Of a stretch of 31,763 nucleotides of DNA, positions 3,064 to 31,763 are shown in pieces. The DNA comes from a virus, in IMG/VR virus record IMGVR_UViG_3300010430_000325, positions 1-31,763 of that record; one strand, written 5' to 3'. Below the pieces are notes generated by a model. The model was not told the DNA's origin. It did no database searches and worked only from the letters and a program-made list of their open reading frames with translations. Made by a program: the position numbers and the translations under genes. How positions within the stretch are numbered: the stretch's first letter is position 1; the number at the start of each line of letters is the position of its first letter.

Positions 3064-3981
3064 ATGTCTATGGTAGAAGTAGTTGACCTTTATACATTAG
3101 AGCAACAATGGGAAAATACGAAGAAAATGGTCCAGCAACAAAATCAATGGGCTACCATAGTGTCTAGAGCACAGGCACAATTGCACAATGACCTCGCGTC
3201 TCCTATGATATACTTGATAGATCCTATGGTGATCTTCAGTGCAATGGTGTACGACAAGATCGAAACATATGAACAAATGTCCGCAGACACGTATACCATG
3301 AGTAAATTGAAGATAGAAGCGGTGGATGATCTACCTTGTTACGAAGGAAGACCTATCTGGGACAGATTAAATGGAGAGAATGTGGTACTTTACAAGGCTT
3401 TCGCAAGATACCGTGATATGGATGTACGTGATATATCTAAGTTAGCGGAGATCGAAGGTATAAAAGTACGTACTCTTGATATATTGAGCAGAATATGGCA
3501 TTGGAAACTTCGTGTTAAGCTATTCGACATGAATGAAGAAAGAATCATCGAGTTAAATCGTCATAGATTAGTAAGATCTATGCAAAACACACATCAGGAG
3601 ACAGCGAGTAAGTTATTCAAGAAGAGTACCGATTACTTATTAGCAAATATCAATGATATGGATCCTAAAGATGTAATAGCATTAATGGACAAAGCAGTTA
3701 AGTTGGAGCGTTTATCATTAGGTTTATCACCAGATAAGGTTGGTGAAGGCGAAGCTACTCCACTTAGTATAAATGTACACAGTAATACTAATTTACTTGG
3801 TGCTGGAACACCGGCGCAAGAAATTAAAAAAGAGATAACACCAGAAAATAAGAATGAAATAACTGAAGAAATGGCAAAAGTACTGGCAGTCATAAATCAA
3901 GTTGGTGGTTTAAGTAACGTGATTGATATTCCAGACGAGGAACTTGAAGAAGTCGAAGCTACGGAAGACGATGAGTCATGA
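3064..3981 (+). CDS. terS: Terminase small subunit (putative), 305 aa
   Basis: The small terminase recognises the packaging site and recruits the large subunit. The call rests on position (first gene of the late operon, two genes before an unmistakable large terminase) and on a segment at residues about 105-155 that fits the small-subunit helix-turn-helix pattern: AFARYRDMDVRDIS, then a recognition helix ending in IWHWKLRV and an F/W-D. The C terminus (about 240-305) is strongly acidic and probably disordered, as is common where TerS contacts TerL. A TAGGAG ribosome site precedes the ATG. At 305 aa it is longer than many TerS proteins. The stop overlaps the next start as ATGA. Confidence 0.7.
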   Translation: MSMVEVVDLYTLEQQWENTKKMVQQQNQWATIVSRAQAQLHNDLASPMIYLIDPMVIFSAMVYDKIETYEQMSADTYTMSKLKIEAVDDLPCYEGRPIWDRLNGENVVLYKAFARYRDMDVRDISKLAEIEGIKVRTLDILSRIWHWKLRVKLFDMNEERIIELNRHRLVRSMQNTHQETASKLFKKSTDYLLANINDMDPKDVIALMDKAVKLERLSLGLSPDKVGEGEATPLSINVHSNTNLLGAGTPAQEIKKEITPENKNEITEEMAKVLAVINQVGGLSNVIDIPDEELEEVEATEDDES

Positions 3982-4400
3982 TAGCTTCCTTAATATATAT
4001 TTTAACAAGTTGGGGTTGGAAAAAAATAGATGAGTTAACTTCACATGACTCACTATTTAACCCCGACGGAAAAGTTAGGAAAATAGTGGACTTCGAAAAG
4101 CGGAACCTTTCGCACAGCGAGAATTGTTTTGATGTGGTACTTATAAATGAAGACGGATTGTCAAGATCGGTCTTTAAAGTCAGTTCAGATCAAAGGTTTG
4201 TATTAAGCGATATGTGCAAAGTACAGGCTAAAGACCTTAAAAAAGGAGATCAGTTATTTCAATGTAAAATGTCTAAAGAGAAATGGTTCGTAAGTAGTAT
4301 TACAGAAAGTACCACATTAGTTTGGTATAGGTTAATATCGGAGAAGCATTTCTTTTTAATAAACGGTTGTTATGCAATATTAGGAGATGATTCAGAATGA
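3978..4400 (+). CDS. Free-standing Hint-domain (intein-fold) protein, apparently inactive
   Basis: The product (140 aa) reads like a mini-intein without its catalytic residues. Residues 3-20 (ASLIYILTSWGWKKIDEL) match intein block A, with the initiator Met two residues upstream where the nucleophilic Cys/Ser would be. Residues 69-93 match block B, but the usual TxxH is SSDQ. LKKGDQLF (87-94) is the conserved L-GD-L step. Residues 116-135 (WYRLISEKHFFLINGCYAIL) match blocks F and G, but GDD replaces the terminal His-Asn. Splicing is therefore not expected. The gene overlaps terS and terL by ATGA at both ends, so all three are probably co-translated. A structural or packaging role is inferred. 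A chance resemblance is possible, but the order of blocks argues against it. Confidence 0.6.
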   Translation: MIASLIYILTSWGWKKIDELTSHDSLFNPDGKVRKIVDFEKRNLSHSENCFDVVLINEDGLSRSVFKVSSDQRFVLSDMCKVQAKDLKKGDQLFQCKMSKEKWFVSSITESTTLVWYRLISEKHFFLINGCYAILGDDSE

Positions 4401-5776
4401 GTATTTACGACGACATTGCAAAACTTAATTACAATGACATGGCAACTTTACAACAGCTTTTAACCCCCAAGTTAAATGAGTTCATTCCCCATATGCCCAC
4501 ACCTAAACAAAAAGCTTTTATGTTACTTATGATCAGAGAGGCTTTTTATGGTGGGGCTGCTGGGGGAGGTAAATCGGATGCATTATTAATGGATGCTCTA
4601 CAAAATGTAGATGTAAAAGGATACGCCGCAATAATCTTTCGTAAAACGTTTGCAGACCTTAACAAGCCGGGTGCCTTAATCCCAAGAGCTCACGAATGGT
4701 TAGCTCCAGGAATGGATTTAGGTAAGGTAAAATGGAATGAGAAGAAGACACGTTTTGAATTTTTAGAAACCTTTGGTAGAAGAAAGGATATCAAATCAAT
4801 TCTTCAGTTTGGATATCTAGACACCGCCAAAAGTAGATTTAACTATCAGGGTGGAGAATATCAGTACATTGGTTATGATGAGCTTACACATATTTATGAG
4901 GTGTGTTATAAATATATGTTCTCTCGTCTAAGAAGATTAAAAGGATCTACTATCCCATTGAAAGTACGTAGTGCTTCCAATCCGCCAGAAGATGATTCTG
5001 GTATATGGGTATATGAAAGATTTGTTAAAATAGAAACAAAGCAGCCAGATGCAATATTTATTCCTGCGGGATTAGATGATAACCCATACTTAGATAGAGA
5101 AGAATATCTGCAATCACTTGAGATGTTGGATCCTGTATCTAGAGCCAGATTAAGAGATGGTGACTGGGAGATCAGAGCTACTGGTAATATGTTTAAGGAA
5201 GAATGGTTCCCAATTATAAATGGTAATCTTAATGACTACAGACAAAAGGTTAGATTTTGGGACTTAGCAGCAACAAAGAAGAAGAAGAGTGATGAGACGG
5301 TTGGATATTTGATGAGTCAGATAGATGGTCGATTTATTATAGAAGATATTGAGATACTTAAAGGTTCACCTAATGAAGTTAATGAACGTGTTAGAAACAT
5401 CGCTAAGATGGATGGGTATGCTACGTACATTAGGGAAGAGATTGAACCTGGATCTTCTGGTTTATTTACAGAGGAAGCACATAAATCGCTACTTAAAGGG
5501 TTTATGTTTGAAGGTATTAGATCACTGAATAATAAAGTTGAAAGAGCTAAACCTTTTAGTGCGGCGTGTGAAAAAGGAAAAGTAGGTGTATGGCATAAAT
5601 GTCGTAATATTGAAAGATTCTTTGCACAGGCTAAATCGTTCCCGAACGTAAATCATGATGATATTGTTGATGCCGGAGCAGGAGCTTTTAACTTCTTAAA
5701 TGGAAATATATTTACAGGAATGCCTGTTAATGTGTTTGATGAGAATAATGAAGATAGCTACTGGCACAGGATATAA
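4397..5776 (+). CDS. terL: Terminase large subunit
   Basis: This is the packaging motor and nuclease that pumps DNA into the prohead. The ATPase domain shows a P-loop, GGAAGGGKS (52-60), preceded by the adenine-motif-like TPKQKAF (35-41), a Walker B strand YIGYDE (157-162) and the coupling SN pair (194-195). The C-terminal RNase H-like nuclease shows RFWDLA with D289, a second acidic cluster REEIEPG (346-352) and the third acidic site HDDIVDA (420-426). The length (459 aa) is normal. The ribosome site is TAGGAG and the start overlaps the Hint gene by ATGA. The reading frame is uninterrupted, so no intein lies within it. Confidence 0.96.
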   Translation: MSIYDDIAKLNYNDMATLQQLLTPKLNEFIPHMPTPKQKAFMLLMIREAFYGGAAGGGKSDALLMDALQNVDVKGYAAIIFRKTFADLNKPGALIPRAHEWLAPGMDLGKVKWNEKKTRFEFLETFGRRKDIKSILQFGYLDTAKSRFNYQGGEYQYIGYDELTHIYEVCYKYMFSRLRRLKGSTIPLKVRSASNPPEDDSGIWVYERFVKIETKQPDAIFIPAGLDDNPYLDREEYLQSLEMLDPVSRARLRDGDWEIRATGNMFKEEWFPIINGNLNDYRQKVRFWDLAATKKKKSDETVGYLMSQIDGRFIIEDIEILKGSPNEVNERVRNIAKMDGYATYIREEIEPGSSGLFTEEAHKSLLKGFMFEGIRSLNNKVERAKPFSAACEKGKVGVWHKCRNIERFFAQAKSFPNVNHDDIVDAGAGAFNFLNGNIFTGMPVNVFDENNEDSYWHRI

Positions 5777-5791
5777 ATTGAGGAGGTGTAC

Positions 5792-7216
5792 ATGGGTTTA
5801 AAAGATTTGTTTAAAGGTAAAACAGCGCCCGAAGAAACACCTGTTGAGAAACAAGGAGTACCGAGTTTAGCTGAACTGGGCGGTACAGGACTACGTGCTT
5901 GGTCAGGTGAAGTGTATGAAGAGTTTCTTAACAATTTACGATATCCTCAAGCAGCTAAAGTATATCAAGAAATGGCAGACAATGATCCAGTTATCGGTGC
6001 CGTGTTATACATGTCAGAACAAATGATACGTAATACGTCATGGTCAGTAGAGCCAGCAAGTGATTCACCTTTAGATAAGGAAATTGCAGAATTTGTTGAA
6101 TCTTGTATGGATGATATGGATATGAGTTGGAATGATACGATTACAGAAATCTTATCTTATCTTGAATACGGTTGGAGCTTTCATGAAATTGTATACAAAA
6201 GACGTAAGGGTATATTTGCACCTAAAAAGTCAAGAAGTGTGCACAATGATGGAAAGATTGGTTGGAGAAGATTACCAATTAGATCACAACACTCATTTTG
6301 GAAATGGATCTTAGATGAGAAAAATGGTGATATAAAGGGATTTGTTCAAAAGCCAGCACCGACATATAGAGAAGTAACTATTCCTATGTCAAAAGGATTA
6401 TTATTTAGAACTAGAGTTGCTAGAAATAATCCAGAAGGAAAGTCGTTATTGAGAAATGCTTATCGTCCTTGGTATTTTAAAAAGAATATTGAGGAAATTG
6501 AAGGTATAGGTATTGAGAGAGACTTAGCCGGACTTCCAGTAATTCAACCCCCAGAAGGGATTGATGTATTTGGTAAAGATGTTAAGGCGAAACAATATTT
6601 AGCCGCTGCAAAAGATATTGTAAAAGCAATACGTCGTGATAAAAATGAAGGTGTAGTATTACCAGCTGGTTGGAAGTTAACTCTAATGAGTACTGGTGGA
6701 GCAAGACAATTTGATACTAACGGAATTATAAATCGTTATGATCAGAGAATTGCAATGACATTACTTTCAGATTTAGTTATGATGGGTGCTGACAAAGTTG
6801 GATCATTTGCACTAGCAGATGTTAAGAAGAGTTTGTTAGCAAGTGCTTTAGAAGCACAAGCAAAAAATATTGCAGATGTGTTTAATAAACATGCAATACC
6901 ACAATTGGTTAAAATTAATTTTACTGGATTTACTGGATTTCCAAAAATGGTACCTGGTGAGATTGAAACACCAGATATTAGAGAAATAGGTTTATTCTTC
7001 AGGAATGTCGGATTTGATATTAAATCGGATATTAAACTTTACAATTATCTACTTCAAATCATCGGTGGACCACAGGTTGATGAAGAAGCATTTGATAAGA
7101 TTATAAGTGCTGGGCAAACAGACAACAATACTCCAGCAGATCCTAAGGAGATAGATCCTAATTTCCAAACAGAACCGGTAGAGCCTAAACCAGGAGAGGA
7201 GAACAATAATGAGTAA
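5792..7216 (+). CDS. Portal protein (DUF935/Mu gp29-like)
   Basis: The portal is the dodecameric ring at the capsid vertex through which DNA enters and leaves. It directly follows terL. Residues about 50-120 (NDPVIGAVLYMSEQMIRNTSWSVEP, then DTITEILSYLEYGWSFHEIVYKRR, given in parts) match the N-terminal portion of DUF935-type portals, and the DLAGLPVI and long helical segments toward the C terminus fit the clip/stem and crown. The start chosen is ATG 5792, five bases after AGGAGG; the GTG at 5786 overlaps the ribosome site and is rejected. The product is 474 aa with a Pro/Glu-rich disordered end. It overlaps the next gene by eight bases. Confidence 0.85.
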   Translation: MGLKDLFKGKTAPEETPVEKQGVPSLAELGGTGLRAWSGEVYEEFLNNLRYPQAAKVYQEMADNDPVIGAVLYMSEQMIRNTSWSVEPASDSPLDKEIAEFVESCMDDMDMSWNDTITEILSYLEYGWSFHEIVYKRRKGIFAPKKSRSVHNDGKIGWRRLPIRSQHSFWKWILDEKNGDIKGFVQKPAPTYREVTIPMSKGLLFRTRVARNNPEGKSLLRNAYRPWYFKKNIEEIEGIGIERDLAGLPVIQPPEGIDVFGKDVKAKQYLAAAKDIVKAIRRDKNEGVVLPAGWKLTLMSTGGARQFDTNGIINRYDQRIAMTLLSDLVMMGADKVGSFALADVKKSLLASALEAQAKNIADVFNKHAIPQLVKINFTGFTGFPKMVPGEIETPDIREIGLFFRNVGFDIKSDIKLYNYLLQIIGGPQVDEEAFDKIISAGQTDNNTPADPKEIDPNFQTEPVEPKPGEENNNE

Positions 7217-9906: not shown

Positions 9907-10221
9907 ATGGACGAATTGTTACTAAATAACGAGTTAATGTATCAAGCGTTTTGTTTACAAATAGGCTCGGAACAAGATCTTTGTGATCCCTTGGTGGGTG
10001 ATGAAAATAAAACGTATGAAGAAGAGATTGGTAAGATATTCGAAATGAATGGCTTGAAGTGGTTTGTAGTATTTAGAGATGAATATGCTAATATGCCCCG
10101 ACCCATTGAACCTCTAGATTTTGAATTGATCTCAGAAATAAAAGTAAAATACGGTGCAAAATTTAAACAATATAAAGACATAATTAAGGAAGGAGAAACT
10201 GATGCCACTAATGAGATGTAG
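9907..10221 (+). CDS. Hypothetical protein, 104 aa
   Basis: The ATG follows GTAGGAGGAGCTT, a strong ribosome site. The product is acidic and soluble, with a central segment EEIGKIFEMNGLKWFVVFRDEY and a C-terminal helix with Lys/Glu alternation. I do not recognise a family. It overlaps the SOD-like/XkdF gene by 20 bases, so the two are probably translationally coupled, and a role linked to head assembly or to that protein is plausible. Confidence 0.65.
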   Translation: MDELLLNNELMYQAFCLQIGSEQDLCDPLVGDENKTYEEEIGKIFEMNGLKWFVVFRDEYANMPRPIEPLDFELISEIKVKYGAKFKQYKDIIKEGETDATNEM

Positions 10222-11269
10222 ATCCGATGGACAATCCGGATGGAAATTTGGAGAGTCGGGAACTTGTTTTGTCGGAGACGATGCAAGATCAAACGCAATA
10301 GATCAGATGCAGGCGATGTTCGCTTCTGGGTTTATAGAAAAACAAGCGATAGATGTGAAAAATGTTTTCTCAACAGAACAGTGGGAAATGCATTTATCTT
10401 ATTTTGATCATATCGAGGATATGGTTAGACTTGGTTGGGAGGAACATGAATGGGCACATACAGAAGATGTACATGATCTTTTATTCCATTCCAGTTTCTT
10501 TGAAGCTTTAGGGAAATCGGGCGAACCTAATACAGGTTTAATGACCAAAATTACGGAAACATTTGGATCGCTGGAGAATTTATTTGATTTGGTACTTTCA
10601 AGATCTATTTGGTCTGATCAGGATTGGGTAATCATAGCATTTGATTATAACTTTGGAAGATTAGTTGTTAGTTCTTCTAGAAATTATTTACCTGATGATA
10701 TGAAAATATTATTTGCACTTGATATGAAAGAGCATGCAAGGATTCTTGACTTTAAGTTTGATAAATTAGCTTATGTGAGACAAGTGCTAAATAATATCAA
10801 TTGGAATGTTGTAAATAGTAGATTTGATTCGATATTAGTGAAATCTAGGGAAAAAGTACACATCTGCAAGACCTCGGAAGAAGGGGATGAGCGATTAGTG
10901 TTTGGATGGGCAAATGTATCATTAAATGCTGAGGGCGACTATCCACTTGATTACGATGGTCATATTATGGAACCAGAAGTGCTTGAAAAAGCCGCTTATG
11001 AGTTTGTACTTGACTTTAGAGATATGGGTGAACGACATGCAGGTGAATCAAAAGGTACACTTGTTGAAAGTATGATGTTCACTAAAGAAAAAATGGATTT
11101 AATGGGTATTCCTGAAGGTACATTACCTGAGGGTTGGTGGATAGGTTTTCACGTAGAAGATGAAGTAGCTTTCCAAAAGATCAAAGATGGAGAGTATTCA
11201 ATGTTTTCAATCCAGGGTACAGGTACCGTAGAACCCATAGAGGATGAGGGAGGTGCGACTGATGAGTAA
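10202..11269 (+). CDS. Superoxide dismutase-like domain fused to XkdF-type prohead protease
   Basis: Three parts are visible in 355 aa. Residues 1-45 form a small domain with GWKFGESGTC and two cysteines (C6, C22), as at the N terminus of many phage head proteins. Residues about 55-212 align with Fe/Mn superoxide dismutase: STEQWEMH (57-64), LFHSSFFEAL (94-103), FGSLENLF (121-128), W142, ALDMKEHA (172-179) and NINWNVVNSRF (198-208). The four metal ligands are kept: H64, H96, D174, H178. The canonical second-sphere Gln and gateway Tyr are not obvious, and the hairpin between the first two ligands is about 15 residues shorter than in E. coli SodB. Residues about 218-345 resemble XkdF-type prohead protease, with candidate H279 and S336. 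It directly precedes the scaffold gene. Whether the SOD-like part is an enzyme or structural is open. Confidence 0.75.
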   Translation: MPLMRCRSDGQSGWKFGESGTCFVGDDARSNAIDQMQAMFASGFIEKQAIDVKNVFSTEQWEMHLSYFDHIEDMVRLGWEEHEWAHTEDVHDLLFHSSFFEALGKSGEPNTGLMTKITETFGSLENLFDLVLSRSIWSDQDWVIIAFDYNFGRLVVSSSRNYLPDDMKILFALDMKEHARILDFKFDKLAYVRQVLNNINWNVVNSRFDSILVKSREKVHICKTSEEGDERLVFGWANVSLNAEGDYPLDYDGHIMEPEVLEKAAYEFVLDFRDMGERHAGESKGTLVESMMFTKEKMDLMGIPEGTLPEGWWIGFHVEDEVAFQKIKDGEYSMFSIQGTGTVEPIEDEGGATDE

Positions 11270-11993
11270 TCCAGGGTTTGCTACTCACAAAATAAAGAAA
11301 GCAACATTTGATAGGGTAGATTTAGTTCCAGAGGGTGCTAATTCAGCTGCAGATATTGTTTTATTTAAGGCTAAAAAAGATGAAGGAGGACCAAAAATGC
11401 CTAAGACTTATGAAGAAATTGTAAAATCTTTGCCAGAAGAAGAACAAGCAGTCGTAACTGCTGAACTTCAAAAAGAGAAAGATACGTCAGTTGATCTTCA
11501 AAAACAGCTTGATAAGAAGGATGAAGAAGCCATCGAAAAAGCTAAAGAAGAAGAAATGACAGAGGATGAATTAATCCTTAAAAGTTTGACTGGCCCTGCA
11601 AAGGAAGCTTTCCTTAAGATGAAAAAGGAAAGAGATGATGAGAAGTTAGAAAAAGAGAAACTTGAAAAAGAAACTTTTGAAGCTTCATTGTCTAAAGAAT
11701 TAGAAGAGATTGACTTTGCTAAGACAATCGATGGATTCGAAGATAACTATAAAAAGTTAGCTAAAGAATCTCCAGAATTAAAAACTATGGTTCTTGACTT
11801 ATTAAAGCAAATGGATCAAGTTGTAGAAGTATCAGATTTATTTAAAGAGTTAGGTAGTTCTTCTGAAGAGGAAATGGATGATAGCGAACAGCTAGAATCT
11901 CTTACTAAGGAAAGAGCTAAAGCAGATGGAATTTCTTATGAGCAGGCTTACGCCGTAGTTCTAAAAGAAAATCCTGATCTATATGAAGGGTAA
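11262..11993 (+). CDS. Prohead scaffolding protein
   Basis: The scaffold shapes the prohead and is removed by the protease encoded just upstream. The start chosen is ATG 11262, nine bases after GGGAGG; the track-like upstream ATG at 11244 lies before that site. The product is 243 aa. The N terminus has a conserved phage motif, VDLVPEGANSAADIVLFK, seen where XkdF-type proteins meet their scaffold. Residues about 65-190 are strongly charged and predicted to form long coiled coils (Lys/Glu-rich with heptad-like Leu). The acidic C terminus may touch the capsid shell. It overlaps the protease gene by eight bases. An internal ribosome site could give a second, shorter product from 11397. Confidence 0.8.
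   Translation: MSNPGFATHKIKKATFDRVDLVPEGANSAADIVLFKAKKDEGGPKMPKTYEEIVKSLPEEEQAVVTAELQKEKDTSVDLQKQLDKKDEEAIEKAKEEEMTEDELILKSLTGPAKEAFLKMKKERDDEKLEKEKLEKETFEASLSKELEEIDFAKTIDGFEDNYKKLAKESPELKTMVLDLLKQMDQVVEVSDLFKELGSSSEEEMDDSEQLESLTKERAKADGISYEQAYAVVLKENPDLYEG
11383..11399 (+). promoter_or_regulatory. Internal ribosome site and in-frame start within the scaffold gene
   Basis: AAGGAGGA (11383-11390) is followed after six bases by an in-frame ATG (11397-11399). The predicted internal product is 198 aa (11397-11993) and consists of the coiled-coil scaffold without the N-terminal motif. This would parallel nested protease/scaffold genes in other phages. Confidence 0.55.
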
Positions 11994-12004: not shown

Positions 12005-12361
12005 ATGCCTATTACAAAAGCTTATGAAATGCCAAAACTTAAGTTAAACGGAACTGCTGCAGCTGATTTCACTGCTAGTAGATTCCTAGCAGGTGTAAGA
12101 GATACCAATGGTGATATCGCATTAGCTGGCGCTGGTGTTGCTATTACTGGTATCATCCAAGATGGTGTTGATGTTGGTCAAACTTTAGGTGTGATCGCAT
12201 TAGGTGTATCATTTTGTGTATTCGGCGCTACTGTAGCTGCCGGTGAACAAGTGGAAGTTGATGCAGCTGGAAAATTCATTCCGTTGGCTGCAGGTATTGC
12301 TGTTGGAATTTGCGAAGTTGGTGGCGCTGCGGATGCTATCGGCTGTGTATTATTGAAATAA
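12005..12361 (+). CDS. Capsid cement/decoration protein (DUF2190-like), 118 aa
   Basis: A small Gly/Ala/Val-rich beta-barrel protein, such as those that bind and stabilise the capsid lattice. The pattern 'FTASRFLAGVRDTNGDIALAG', 'GIIQDGVDVGQTLGVIALG', then 'AGEQVEVDAAGKFIPLA' and 'GICEVGGAADAIGCVLL' fits DUF2190-type proteins, which usually lie just before the major capsid gene, as here. The ribosome site is AAGGAGG. The length is normal for the family. Confidence 0.82.
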   Translation: MPITKAYEMPKLKLNGTAAADFTASRFLAGVRDTNGDIALAGAGVAITGIIQDGVDVGQTLGVIALGVSFCVFGATVAAGEQVEVDAAGKFIPLAAGIAVGICEVGGAADAIGCVLLK

Positions 12362-12374
12362 GGAGGGTAAATAG

Positions 12375-13382
12375 ATGCCTAAGCAAATCAAGAAACAACA
12401 AAAAAACATAGGTACTCACATTGTGAGATCCTTAACGAATATTTCAGTTGCCTGGATGCAGACACAAGATATGTTCGTATCTGATAAGGTATTCCCAGTA
12501 ATTCCTGTTCAGAAACAAGCTGATTCATATTTCATCTATACTAGAGCAGATTGGTTCAGAGATGAAATGGCAGATAGAGCTGCTGGAACTGAATCAAACG
12601 GTACTGAGTACGGTGTTGAATCGGCTGATCCTTACTACTGTAAGAAGAAGTCATTACACTACGACATCACTGAAGAGGAAAGAGCTAACAGTGATGATCC
12701 ATTAGCTCCTGACACTGATGCTACTGAGTTCTTAACTCAAAAAGGCATGCTTCATAAAGAAGTACGTTGGGCAGATAAGTTCTTTAAAGTTAACGTATGG
12801 GCAACAGATGTTCAAGGTGTTGCTACAACTCCTGGTGCAAATGAAGTTTTATCATGGGCTGACTTAGTTAATGCTAATCCAATCGATGATATTCAAACAT
12901 ACATTATCACAGTTGCTGGCTTAACTGGTAAGAAACCTAATACATTAGTATTAGCGTCTGACACATTTAAAGCTGTTAAGAACAATGAAGTGGTACTTGA
13001 CAGAATTAAGTACACTCAAAGAGGTGTTGTAACTACTGATATTTTAGCTTCTTTGTTCGAAGTTCAAAACGTATATGTAGCTTGGGGAGTTGTTAATTCA
13101 GCTGCTAAAGGCGAAACAGAAAGTACTGGATTTATTATGTCTGGTGGAGCATTGTTATTGTACGTTGAAAAGAGTCCTGGTTTAAGAAAACCATCGGCTG
13201 GATATACATTCGCATGGACTGGCTTACTTGGCGCTGGTGCATTCGGAAATAGAATCAGAAAGATTCCAATGCCTAACCTTGGTGAAGGTACTGAGAGAAT
13301 CGAAATCGACAATGCATTTGATCATAAAGTAATTGCTGATGATTTGGGCGTATTCTTCTATGATTTACTTGTAACTGCGTAA
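12375..13382 (+). CDS. Major capsid protein (HK97-fold, gpE-like)
   Basis: The main shell protein. At 335 aa, it follows the scaffold and cement genes. The pattern is typical of this capsid group: ISVAWMQTQDMFVSDKVFPV (24-43), YFIYTRADWFRDEMADRAAG (52-71), the HYDITEEERANSDDPLAPD segment (about 95-113), then a DDIQTYI helix and the KPNTLVLASDTFKAVKNNEVVLDRIKYT region, and near the end the R-K-I-P-M segment. The ribosome site is AAGGAGG. No clear N-terminal delta domain is visible, consistent with a separate scaffold gene. Codon use is slightly less AT-rich than in neighbours, as expected for a highly expressed gene. Confidence 0.92.
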   Translation: MPKQIKKQQKNIGTHIVRSLTNISVAWMQTQDMFVSDKVFPVIPVQKQADSYFIYTRADWFRDEMADRAAGTESNGTEYGVESADPYYCKKKSLHYDITEEERANSDDPLAPDTDATEFLTQKGMLHKEVRWADKFFKVNVWATDVQGVATTPGANEVLSWADLVNANPIDDIQTYIITVAGLTGKKPNTLVLASDTFKAVKNNEVVLDRIKYTQRGVVTTDILASLFEVQNVYVAWGVVNSAAKGETESTGFIMSGGALLLYVEKSPGLRKPSAGYTFAWTGLLGAGAFGNRIRKIPMPNLGEGTERIEIDNAFDHKVIADDLGVFFYDLLVTA

Positions 13383-28224: not shown

Positions 28225-28427
28225 CTTCTTGCCTTCTTTCTTGCCTTTCGTGCACCATCTTTAGTTATACAATCAAGTCTCCCAATTCGTTGAGATTTCA
28301 TGTTACGCATTTCACGTAATGCATTAAGTGATGCCTTCTCTGATATATAACTAGGACAGGTAGAATGGCAATCGCCACTCTCCGTCCTTAACTTACATTT
28401 CTTACAACATTCTATCTTACTGGACAT
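28221..28427 (-). CDS. Small Cys-rich, probably zinc-binding protein, 68 aa
   Basis: Residues 7-25 hold Cys at 7, 8, 11, 20 and 24 plus a His (ECCKKCKLRTESGDCHSTC), a compact zinc-binding pattern common in small phage proteins. The C terminus is very basic (KARKKARR), as for a nucleic-acid-binding protein. It overlaps nrdJ by 16 bases and the 3D gene by ATGA, so it is translated from the same message. The exact role is unknown. Confidence 0.75.
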   Translation of the reverse strand: MSSKIECCKKCKLRTESGDCHSTCPSYISEKASLNALREMRNMKSQRIGRLDCITKDGARKARKKARR

Positions 28428-30751
28428 GCGCCACTCTCACAATCACTACCTACATCATGTAGTTCTTCATGCTTCTCGTACTTACGAAGCATAGAAGGGG
28501 TAATTGGTACTAAATCCCTTGAACGCTGTTCAAATTCCTCTTTAGTAATTTCTTCATAAGGTAATAGTTGATAAACGGCGTCTGAGTAAGGTATTAACGT
28601 AATACCAATAATGTCGTCCCAATTATCATAGATAGCTTGTGTTAGTTCATTCCACTCATTATCTCGTACATGAATTGTAATTGAACAGTTATGATCTACA
28701 TAGTGCTCCATAAACATTAAGTAATTATCTAACTGAGCGAGTGCTGAGATATCAGCCTTAGTAATTCCTCCTGGTGCTTTAACTGGGAACTCAACTACTT
28801 TAGTGTCACATGTTTCTAACTCCTGGCCGACTTCGACATGTATTGGATAATTTAAATTCTCGCATACCTTTAATAATGGATCATCAGCACTAATTCTTAC
28901 TCTTCTTAAATAATAAGGTGAGTGTGAATAATGTACACCACTTGAAACTGTAGGTAGTTGTGATAATGTACCTTCCGGCTTCACTGTGGTCATTAATATT
29001 GGTACTTCCATTCTTAACTGTTCTGCATATTCAGTAGCTGATTCATGTACTACAGTTCTAAGTTCTTGCAATAAACTAACTTGATCAGCTGTATCTAAAC
29101 CAGTAGCATTTACCATATCTTGCCATCCAGTTAATGAACATCCAATAAGCTTATCTCTCTTCTGTACTTGATTCCACTCTGACAATTCTAAATCTACACA
29201 TGTCATTCTATAACCTGCTCTAGCACTAAGATAAAAAGCACGTTTTACCTTTTCTCTATTTAGCTTACCATCTACAACAAATGCCATAACATTAACTGTC
29301 GTTAAATTACATAAACCTTTTCTGTCTAACAAGATCTCACCACATGGATTTACACCATTAAAGTTTTGTCTTCTCTTACTAGCAGCGCTCTCATTTACTA
29401 TACCAGGTTCACCAGTATGTCGCATACGTTTAATGTGTTGCACTAATGCTTCGAATGTTGGTTTAGAGGTATAGTAAACAGAATTATTACTCATTTGTCT
29501 ATGTGCAATCTCTTTATCAATCTTATAGTTTGCATCATATAAATCTACCTTTGCATTTAACATTTCTTTATCATCATGATCAAACATAATCATTTCGGAA
29601 GTTCTTCTTACTCCTCCAGCGACTACATTCTCTCCGATGATGTTAGCGATATCTGCACAATCTATTGAGTGAGGCACTATCGTATCTGAACTTTCAAGTA
29701 TAGCCCTTCTTTGTAGGGTTTTCCATATCTTTTGAAACATTGTTAATATACTTTCATGACCACTAGCATAGCCACCAAAAGTCTTTAATCTTTCACCTTT
29801 AATTCTTATGTTATTGTAATCAATACTAATCATGTTAATTTTTCTATACATATGACTACTTAATAATTTGAAAAATATATCAATAGCTTCCGCCCATCCT
29901 TCTTTACTATCACCAATTACGATAGTTGCTAAAGTACCACATACATTGAGCGATGTATATTCTTCTCTTTTTATAGGTTCAATAGAATCAAACTCTTCGT
30001 GGAAGATATTTACATTTGTTCTGATAGGTGGTAACTTTGCTACATCATTCTTTCTTACCCTTAAACCTCCACCAACACCAACCATTAGTATATAGAATAA
30101 ATCTCTATATACACTATAACCATCAATAATATCAAAAGCACAGTTATAATTAGCAATAGGATATTTATTTGCAACTTCAGTACCTCCTACCCAATGAGTT
30201 CTACCTGATAAGAACTGTCTCAAGTTAAAGATGTTATCAAACAATTCTTCCGCTTCTGACTTAGGAGTAGCAGCTAAACTACAGTTATACTCTACTGATC
30301 GTTTAACTACCTCCCACCAGAATTCTCTTCTAGATTCCTCACTAAGGAACCTCGCGTATGTTCTAATATAAACAAAATTACCTAATACAGTCATAGGTGG
30401 TTGTTGTCGCTTATAGTAACTGTAAAAATCATCACTCAGCAACTGATCTTTATTTGTGGTACTTCTTCTCATGTCCTTGATATACATAAAGATCACATAC
30501 TCTTTAGCTACAAGTTTACTGAAGTCGTAATTCATTAAAGTAAATATCACTACTTCTTGGATGTCATCGATAGTCACCTTGTTATCAGCTTCATACATAC
30601 CTTCAACTGTTTCTTCTATTTCAGATAATAACATCTCCATATTATTATCTGTAAACGATTTACCTATCGCTACACAAGCGCTCTCAATAGCTCCTCGAAT
30701 CTTTTGTATATCAAAAGGTATTTGCCTCTCTTCTCTATTTGTTATGCGCAT
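28412..30751 (-). CDS. nrdJ: Class II (adenosylcobalamin-dependent) ribonucleoside-triphosphate reductase, monomeric
   Basis: Reduces ribonucleotides to deoxyribonucleotides without oxygen, using adenosylcobalamin. The five redox/radical cysteines of the Lactobacillus leichmannii-type enzyme are present in order: C204 in NYNCAF, radical C470 in NPCGEI, C481 in GLCNLT (11 apart, as in the L. leichmannii enzyme), and C771/C776 in DCESGACPVR at the C terminus (5 apart, as there). An N-terminal ATP-cone of about 95 residues (MRITNREERQIPFDIQKIRG) is present, which would allow allosteric control by ATP/dATP. It overlaps the DNA polymerase gene by ten bases, with an AAGGAG site before its ATG. It suits infection under anoxic or variable oxygen conditions, provided the host supplies B12. 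Confidence 0.95.
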   Translation of the reverse strand: MRITNREERQIPFDIQKIRGAIESACVAIGKSFTDNNMEMLLSEIEETVEGMYEADNKVTIDDIQEVVIFTLMNYDFSKLVAKEYVIFMYIKDMRRSTTNKDQLLSDDFYSYYKRQQPPMTVLGNFVYIRTYARFLSEESRREFWWEVVKRSVEYNCSLAATPKSEAEELFDNIFNLRQFLSGRTHWVGGTEVANKYPIANYNCAFDIIDGYSVYRDLFYILMVGVGGGLRVRKNDVAKLPPIRTNVNIFHEEFDSIEPIKREEYTSLNVCGTLATIVIGDSKEGWAEAIDIFFKLLSSHMYRKINMISIDYNNIRIKGERLKTFGGYASGHESILTMFQKIWKTLQRRAILESSDTIVPHSIDCADIANIIGENVVAGGVRRTSEMIMFDHDDKEMLNAKVDLYDANYKIDKEIAHRQMSNNSVYYTSKPTFEALVQHIKRMRHTGEPGIVNESAASKRRQNFNGVNPCGEILLDRKGLCNLTTVNVMAFVVDGKLNREKVKRAFYLSARAGYRMTCVDLELSEWNQVQKRDKLIGCSLTGWQDMVNATGLDTADQVSLLQELRTVVHESATEYAEQLRMEVPILMTTVKPEGTLSQLPTVSSGVHYSHSPYYLRRVRISADDPLLKVCENLNYPIHVEVGQELETCDTKVVEFPVKAPGGITKADISALAQLDNYLMFMEHYVDHNCSITIHVRDNEWNELTQAIYDNWDDIIGITLIPYSDAVYQLLPYEEITKEEFEQRSRDLVPITPSMLRKYEKHEELHDVGSDCESGACPVR

Positions 30752-31763
30752 AAAATCTCCTTCTTAACCTGCTTAGCAGTCATGCCACTTTTTAGATAAG
30801 GTCTTGCTTTCGCAAAATCTTCTAAGTCCACAATATCTTTCCAATTATAGCCTACCTCAACATCACTTCTAAATGGCAATGTCCAACCAGCTAATTTCTT
30901 AGGTTGTTCAGCCATAATTTCAGCAACCTGTGAAGTAATTCTTTCTAGCACTTCATCATCATCAAGTATTTCAAATAAAATACTATCATGTACTTCATCT
31001 ACAATATAGATCTCCTTATCAGAAATCATATCTCTCTTGTCAAGATCAATAATACTGCCAAGAATAAAATCAGATATGGTAGATTGCATTCTGTAGTTCT
31101 TGTACTCATTAACTACATTACCTACTGATTGTGAAGTAACTAAACCAGGTCTTTTAGCTCTACCAATAACAGTTCTTATCGTATTACCTTCTCTTGCATC
31201 GACTTCACATTGATCAAGATACTCCTGTGCTAATGGATAACGTTTAGCTAGTCCATCAAATATCTTTCTAGCTTCTGCTAATGGTATATCGTGCTCTTCA
31301 GATAATGACTCTGCAGTTCTACCATAAGCCCAACCAAATAATGCGGCTTTCGCTCTGATGCGCTGCTGTTTACTAAAATGCATACCATATAATACTAAAG
31401 CCATCTCATCATGTGGCGATGATTCAAGTAAATCGGTTCGTAGTTGTATATCACCACTATATTCTTGTAAGGCCCTAAGTTCAGCACCACTATAGTCAAT
31501 TTCACATAATACATATCCTGGTCTAGCAACTATTACTCTTCTAAAGTCTCTACCTTTTCTAGCAGGTAGATTTTGAATATTAGGCCCAGCAGAACTTCTT
31601 CTTCCAGTAGCAGTACCAAATAACTTAAAGTTAGAATGCACACGATCTTGTTCATCCATATATTCTAAGAATGCTACAACATACGTTGATAATTCTTTCT
31701 TTAATGACTGATACTTTAAAATAAGATTGATAATCTCTGGTGGGTTCTTTATCGATTCTAATA
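30742..31763 (-). CDS. polA: Family A DNA polymerase, C-terminal part (cut by the window edge)
   Basis: The frame stays open to the right edge of the window (about 339 residues visible), so the N-terminal part lies outside. Visible parts: KLFGTATGRRSSAGPNIQNL (substrate/primer contact), motif A DYSGAELR, motif B RIRAKAALFGWAYGRT and motif C EVHDSILFE, all with the residues expected for an active polymerase. It is the first visible gene of the minus-strand replication operon, followed by nrdJ with a ten-base overlap, so it and the nucleotide supply enzyme are co-expressed. Confidence 0.95.
   Translation of the reverse strand, partial: LESIKNPPEIINLILKYQSLKKELSTYVVAFLEYMDEQDRVHSNFKLFGTATGRRSSAGPNIQNLPARKGRDFRRVIVARPGYVLCEIDYSGAELRALQEYSGDIQLRTDLLESSPHDEMALVLYGMHFSKQQRIRAKAALFGWAYGRTAESLSEEHDIPLAEARKIFDGLAKRYPLAQEYLDQCEVDAREGNTIRTVIGRAKRPGLVTSQSVGNVVNEYKNYRMQSTISDFILGSIIDLDKRDMISDKEIYIVDEVHDSILFEILDDDEVLERITSQVAEIMAEQPKKLAGWTLPFRSDVEVGYNWKDIVDLEDFAKARPYLKSGMTAKQVKKEILCA

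Follow-up and report, generated by a model that had tools for sequence, protein, structure and literature searches.

A superoxide dismutase-family domain fused to an XkdF-type prohead protease in a phage head-gene cluster

Layout of the fusion gene and its neighbourhood

The window, by which we mean the whole stretch of 31,763 nucleotides analysed here (taken from an IMG/VR record), contains a cluster of head genes in the order terminase, portal, superoxide dismutase (SOD)-XkdF fusion, scaffold-like open reading frame (ORF), small head protein and major capsid protein (Table 1). The fusion gene comes after the portal gene and before the major capsid gene, the placement expected of a prohead protease, and its product is composed of a 45-residue phage module, an Fe/Mn SOD domain and an XkdF prohead protease, in that order. 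The gene starts 7 bases past a strong ribosome-binding site (GGAAGGAG), and its ORF and the preceding gene overlap by 20 bases. The N-terminal module (CRSDGQSGWKFGESGTC), which we take to be reminiscent of the N-termini of other phage proteins, had no family match in Pfam, and was modelled by AF2 with a pLDDT of about 81-83 over residues 1-30 in a run on the full-length protein. The protease domain (PF14550, E 1.2e-19, 71 bits versus a cut-off of 24) is approximately 50% identical to stand-alone XkdF members. An earlier, sequence-only reading of this DNA had described the ORF, an XkdF-type protease domain following the SOD part, and a scaffold gene coming next; the first two were recovered as described, while the ORF that overlaps the fusion gene's end resembles a scaffold in position and composition alone, with no confident family match, and the PHROG scaffolding match falls on the small head protein that follows it.

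Further downstream, the window encodes a tape-measure protein, a B12-type ribonucleotide reductase and a DNA polymerase A; PADLOC returned no match. The nearest relatives of the ribonucleotide reductase were found in Thermus phages, at about 40% identity. Directly before the terminase large subunit gene, at 3978-4400, a HINT domain scored weakly (E 0.0085, under the cut-off), possibly as an intein or Hint remnant.

Table 1. Coordinates of features in the window
Feature	Position	Strand	Evidence
Terminase large subunit	4397..5776	+	phrog_979, 2.5e-95
Portal protein	5786..7216	+	phrog_113, 3.3e-87
Shine-Dalgarno sequence	10188..10195	+	Read directly, 5' of ATG 10202
SOD-XkdF fusion gene (P0001)	10202..11269	+	Single ORF, 355 amino acids
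N-terminal 45-residue module	10202..10336	+	Two strands and a helix (AF2)
Fe/Mn SOD domain, residues 46-215	10337..10846	+	Pfam, phmmer against PDB, AF2/Foldseek, alignment
H64, metal ligand 1	10391..10393	+	Aligned with invariant His of phage SODs; conservation
H96, metal ligand 2	10487..10489	+	Alignment and conservation
D174, metal ligand 3	10721..10723	+	Alignment and conservation
E177, SOD-family dimer-bridging Glu, kept	10730..10732	+	Alignment and conservation
H178, metal ligand 4	10733..10735	+	Alignment and conservation
XkdF/Peptidase_S78_2 prohead protease domain, residues 225-342	10874..11227	+	PF14550; PHROG head maturation protease families
H279, invariant, likely catalytic His	11036..11038	+	21 XkdF domains; putative role
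S290, invariant, likely catalytic Ser	11069..11071	+	21 XkdF domains; putative role
Scaffold-like Glu/Lys-rich protein, overlapping the fusion-gene end	11244..11993	+	Position and composition
Small head protein, PHROG 'head scaffolding'	12005..12361	+	phrog_673, 2.3e-16
Major capsid protein	12375..13382	+	phrog_1005, 1.1e-81
B12-dependent ribonucleotide reductase and DNA polymerase A	28412-30751 and 30742-31659	-	

Fold and metal ligands of the SOD domain

The C-terminal SOD family Sod_Fe_C was matched by Pfam at residues 111-207 (E 4.8e-12; 46.3 bits versus a curated cut-off of 20.9), and Sod_Fe_N was undetected in the protein. When the PDB was searched with phmmer, the 60 matches listed were solely Fe/MnSODs or SOD-derived subunits, the plastid polymerase PAP4/FSD3 among them, and the best match listed was the Aquifex FeSOD 1coj (2.4e-12); identity to any cellular SOD found was about 25%. 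A model of residues 45-217 was produced by AF2 (pLDDT 88.2, pTM 0.85) from an input alignment that contained SODs, and a Foldseek search of the PDB with this model returned solved Fe/MnSODs with a probability of 1.00 and TM scores of up to 0.83. In a full-length AF2 run with XkdF rows only, the helices and strands were recovered in SOD order at low confidence. The E-values of the sequence match are independent of both models.

Residues H64, H96, D174 and H178 align with the ligands of 29 other phage SODs, with exact D174-x3-H178 spacing, and take the positions of H26, H73, D156 and H160 of E. coli SodB; E177, at the position of the dimer-bridging Glu of SODs, is kept as well. Judging by this alignment with true SOD ligands, the four residues would be expected to converge. 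The predicted structure passes the fold part of the refutation test set by the sequence-only reading, whose placing of the four metal ligands agrees with the alignment. Its further claim of a match at 'every landmark' holds for the aligned ligands, and fails for Sod_Fe_N, which gave no match, and for many conserved positions, which are changed. Altogether, the SOD fold and the four-ligand set are well supported, and are far surer than either of the two main readings of what the domain does, as head cargo or as a reused structural module.

Active-site residues kept and lost

In alignment columns conserved in at least 80% of the other phage SODs, the fusion protein has kept 4/4 ligands and 9/29 other positions (Fisher p=0.017, for a small sample and with columns chosen from phage SODs). 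The Trp of DxWEHA is replaced by Lys176, GSGW has become DQDW (the GSG before Trp142 now being DQD), and changes also affect the Tyr next to ligand 1 and the LPY motif of the N-terminal part; Y67 aligns with the conserved Tyr of phage SODs only across a gap, which makes any equivalents of the gateway residues Tyr34 and His30 ambiguous. At the second-sphere position, where compact phage SODs have His in place of Gln, no Gln or His counterpart was found in the alignment with the 29 phage SODs. In cellular SODs it is the second-sphere residue that holds the catalytic water, and one shift in metal preference came with its change from Gln to His (PMC13008324). These residues make a metal site likely and dismutation doubtful, because so few of the other conserved positions are kept and the second-shell residues are lost; the sequence-only reading had reached the same doubt from the missing second-sphere Gln and Tyr.

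Distribution and integrity of the fusion

Scans of IMG/VR and GTDB genomes with protein fragments (of the whole protein and of the SOD part), the capsid-gene relatives and a DNA pattern that covered both domains over a limited linker range yielded no second SOD-XkdF fusion, and none of the 80 further XkdF loci collected with an XkdF alignment had an SOD fused to the protease. The single match of the DNA pattern (L219) was rejected, being a phage SOD ORF that ends before any protease. Close relatives of the protease lack the SOD domain. The one near-identical contig (L007, 99.9% identical to the window) starts at window position 11134, past the SOD-XkdF junction. The synonymous codon score of the SOD segment was 0.233, compared to 0.18-0.27 for six head and tail genes, and fell to -0.11 and 0.10 off-frame.

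In the mainly open-access literature searched, neither a fusion of SOD to a prohead protease nor a packaged phage SOD was described, and viruses and phages go unmentioned in two large surveys of Fe/MnSOD evolution. Phage-encoded SODs are already known, as database entries annotated 'superoxide dismutase'; a domain that belongs to the SOD family by sequence and fold and sits on an XkdF protease is a combination seen once.

Other XkdF proteins with N-terminal enzymes

Most XkdF proteins have short N-termini without an enzyme. Exceptions are two proteins with an N-terminal NUDIX domain (L009:4707-5486 and L010:7951-8730), one with a 2H phosphoesterase that resembles AKAP7/2'-5' RNA ligase and has a sub-threshold Acb1 match (L043:2-1495), and one in which a D12 DNA methyltransferase is followed by a LigD 3'-phosphoesterase and then by XkdF (L237:1426-3390); a DUF5824 domain precedes XkdF in a further protein (L012:6702-7634). 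Several enzymes therefore occur at this position, SOD being one of them. PHROG 1530, labelled DNA methyltransferase, matches the fusion protein via its protease part. Two other proteins, RDJL phi 1 gp71 (L239:4013-4411, 132 residues) and one from a Rhizobium phage (L240:3647-4384, 245 residues), are labelled 'DNA methyltransferase' or 'DNA methyltransferase/prohead protease'; the former is too short for a methyltransferase, and the label of both seems to have been inherited via the common protease domain. Faecalibacterium phage FP_Brigit gp30 (L241:2435-4921), annotated as a portal protein, has a C-terminal NUDIX-like domain (tblastn match only) and is a possible further case of an enzyme on a head protein.

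Unfused phage SODs

Unfused SODs are common in IMG/VR phages (at least 80 loci by motif scan), and many are located in metabolic neighbourhoods that include ribonucleotide reductase and NifU-like genes. Compact SODs are approximately 185-215 residues long and are adjoined by nucleotide-metabolism genes in several loci. An [LI]xE motif is present within the first 16 residues in 19/19 of those examined (for example, MYNFIKQLQEG and MRNWIKLIEA), compared to a mean of 6.4 and a maximum of 13/19 when the leaders were shuffled in 2000 rounds; the leader-bearing proteins include L101, L107, L123, L127, L130, L134, L150, L172, L174 and L175. Long SODs (L103, L116, L131, L161, L178 and about 30 others), which are flanked by genes for a UvsW-type helicase and a head-tail adaptor and in many cases carry a C-terminal extension of ~310 residues, have [LI]xE in the linker just past the SOD domain in 37/37 distinct proteins, at a density of 0.051 versus 0.014 per residue elsewhere in the same proteins (3.6 times). 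These long proteins are ~515 residues in length, and their extension had no Pfam match in the one tested; a PD-(D/E)xK-like nuclease motif was noticed in it by eye.

Sites of the [LI]xE form are preferred by gp21, the prohead protease of T4. The internal proteins of T4 have leaders of 10-20 residues that are removed by gp21 (PMC7411985), and some of these proteins act against host defences (PMC3012670). The similar leaders of compact phage SODs suggest that these enzymes, too, may be packaged in heads. The T4-type protease family PF03420 (gp21 family) was detected in 5/30 SOD-bearing records, most of them fragments, and was absent from most of the records searched (many fragments), including all those with a compact SOD except possibly that of L137. 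Pseudomonas phage PA5oct and relatives, which exist as isolates, encode a compact SOD, the PA5oct protein beginning with the leader MNDSIKKYISIAEA. Its database record carries an 'ESI-MS/MS' note, which in PA5oct is attached to many structural proteins and also to ribonucleotide reductase, thymidylate synthase and UvsX; the note therefore indicates detection, not virion location.

Two candidate observations were set aside. For record G405 (171.6 kb), which has a compact SOD, a suspected T4-type capsid gene was not confirmed, its weak Gp23 match lying among unrelated ORFs. The SODs in the Enterococcus/Listeria 'phage' records H24-H26 resemble host DNA and carry no weight here as evidence, although two of them are rows of alignment A2. 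Separately, a protein encoded in G405 (L248:13406-14176) resembles PmoC by eye, which suggests that this phage may infect a methanotroph.

Possible functions of the fusion

The sequence-only reading had left two functions side by side, a packaged or assembly-time metal enzyme and a structural reuse of the fold; Pfam, PDB and AF2 results support the fold, the ligand set and the fusion to a head-maturation protease, and so bear that reading out in part. We consider that the gene encodes a cargo-protease fusion, in which the SOD domain is delivered into the head by its attachment to the protease, with a probability of roughly 0.47. Prohead proteases are located inside the prohead with the scaffold, as in HK97 and T4. 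The XkdF protease would co-assemble with scaffold inside the prohead, and the N-terminal SOD-fold domain with its Fe/Mn-binding site would be carried in along with it, at many copies per head. Upon activation, the protease would digest itself and the scaffold, and the metal-loaded SOD domain would be freed and stay in the head. The folded 18-kDa domain could then remain close to the DNA or travel out of the head with it, either protecting packaged DNA or entering the next host and blunting superoxide there. Metal binding, packaging, cleavage, superoxide dismutation and benefit to the phage are all steps that we infer.

The cargo reading draws on the SOD match and fold, the retention of every ligand, the position amid head genes, the other XkdF proteins with N-terminal enzymes, the head-targeting-like leaders on unfused phage SODs, that of PA5oct included, and the PF03420 protease of some SOD-bearing records. 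Against it stand the single known SOD-XkdF fusion, the eroded active site, the usual exit of prohead proteases from the head after maturation, the ambiguous PA5oct mass spectrometry note and the presence of PF03420 in few SOD-bearing records. Neither residues 1-116 nor the linker that joins SOD to protease contain [LI]xE, although XkdF's own specificity may differ. The main rival, which we rate as somewhat less probable, is structural reuse: the SOD fold, stabilised by metal, would help the protease to dimerise or to bind scaffold and would have no useful dismutase activity. Proteases related to herpesvirus assemblin are active as dimers, SODs dimerise via an ExxH-type motif, and this motif is kept in the fusion protein; the ligands and E177 have likewise been kept while substrate-funnel and second-shell residues were lost, and SOD-derived subunits of larger complexes exist, PAP4/FSD3 being one. 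A purely structural domain could, however, dispense with the four metal ligands, close XkdF relatives manage without any SOD domain, and the other N-terminal fusion partners are enzymes that share no dimerisation fold. The context, namely XkdF joined to other enzymes and T4-type capsid-targeting or cleavage sequences on unfused SODs, favours the cargo reading.

It is unlikely that the domain serves as a cytoplasmic antioxidant in the infected cell, with the fusion merely coupling its expression to the late head genes; this would suit the many phage SODs beside ribonucleotide reductase and NifU-like genes, but here the SOD is inside a head gene and fused to a prohead-destined protein, and free phage SODs have head-targeting-like leaders. 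A captured SOD domain that has lost its function and persists by chance, as the change of most conserved non-ligand positions and the single occurrence in scans might indicate, is very improbable, since the reading frame, the fold and all metal ligands are intact and phage genomes quickly purge useless sequence. Least credible of all is an assembly chimera of a bacterial SOD with a phage protease: the junction is not covered by the only near-identical contig, but the fusion is in frame, with a strong ribosome-binding site and an overlap with the preceding gene, the SOD part is far from any cellular SOD found, and its phage-like codon use, seen in frame only, makes such an artefact unlikely.

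Taken together, the observations suggest, though short of proof, that antioxidant or host-disarming enzymes are loaded into the particles of some phages. Tentatively, phages may load SOD into heads recurrently, both as separate proteins with T4-type leaders or internal cleavage sites and, in this virus, by fusion to XkdF, and XkdF may be a wider loading platform for enzymes that act on entry (NUDIX, 2H phosphoesterase, DNA methyltransferase). The fused NUDIX, 2H phosphoesterase and DNA methyltransferase domains resemble counter-defence activities, so XkdF N-termini may harbour new ones. If the cargo reading is true, the prohead protease has a second task, that of carrying an enzyme into the capsid, by a route distinct from T4-type leaders; the same route could be put to use for filling phage heads with proteins of choice. 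Antioxidant packaging by phages, and the part of superoxide in the fight between phage and host, would also become directly testable; the packaging question can be put to the test because PA5oct-like isolates with a leader-bearing SOD exist.

Comparison with known systems

With the Fe/Mn SOD family (SodB, SodA, 1coj) the fusion protein shares the fold, the order of elements, the four ligands, the bridging Glu and a C-terminal NW motif; it differs in a shorter stretch between the first two ligands, in the absence of the DxWEHA Trp, GSGW and second-sphere Gln/His, and in being fused to a protease. The short spacing between ligands 1 and 2, together with the ligand set, is also found in the compact phage SODs (PA5oct gp223, Vibrio phage 2.275.O and IMG/VR contigs), which unlike it are separate proteins that have kept the active-site Trp, with an [LI]xE-type leader and a second-sphere His in most. 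The protease half is a full XkdF/Peptidase_S78_2 (PF14550) domain with the invariant His and Ser, and the SOD domain sets the protein apart from the other members, most of which have no N-terminal enzyme. Closest in architecture are the PHROG 1530 'DNA methyltransferase' and the L237 protein, where one or more enzyme domains likewise precede the XkdF protease, although the enzyme differs. The outcome proposed here has its counterpart in the T4 internal proteins (IPI, IPII, IPIII and Alt), which are taken into the core of the prohead, undergo processing as the head matures and are later ejected along with the DNA (PMC7411985, PMC3012670). A T4-type N-terminal leader with [LI]xE is a property of all the compact unfused phage SODs examined and not of the fusion protein: the signal of the T4 proteins is a short leader cut by gp21, whereas the cargo described here would be fused to the protease itself.
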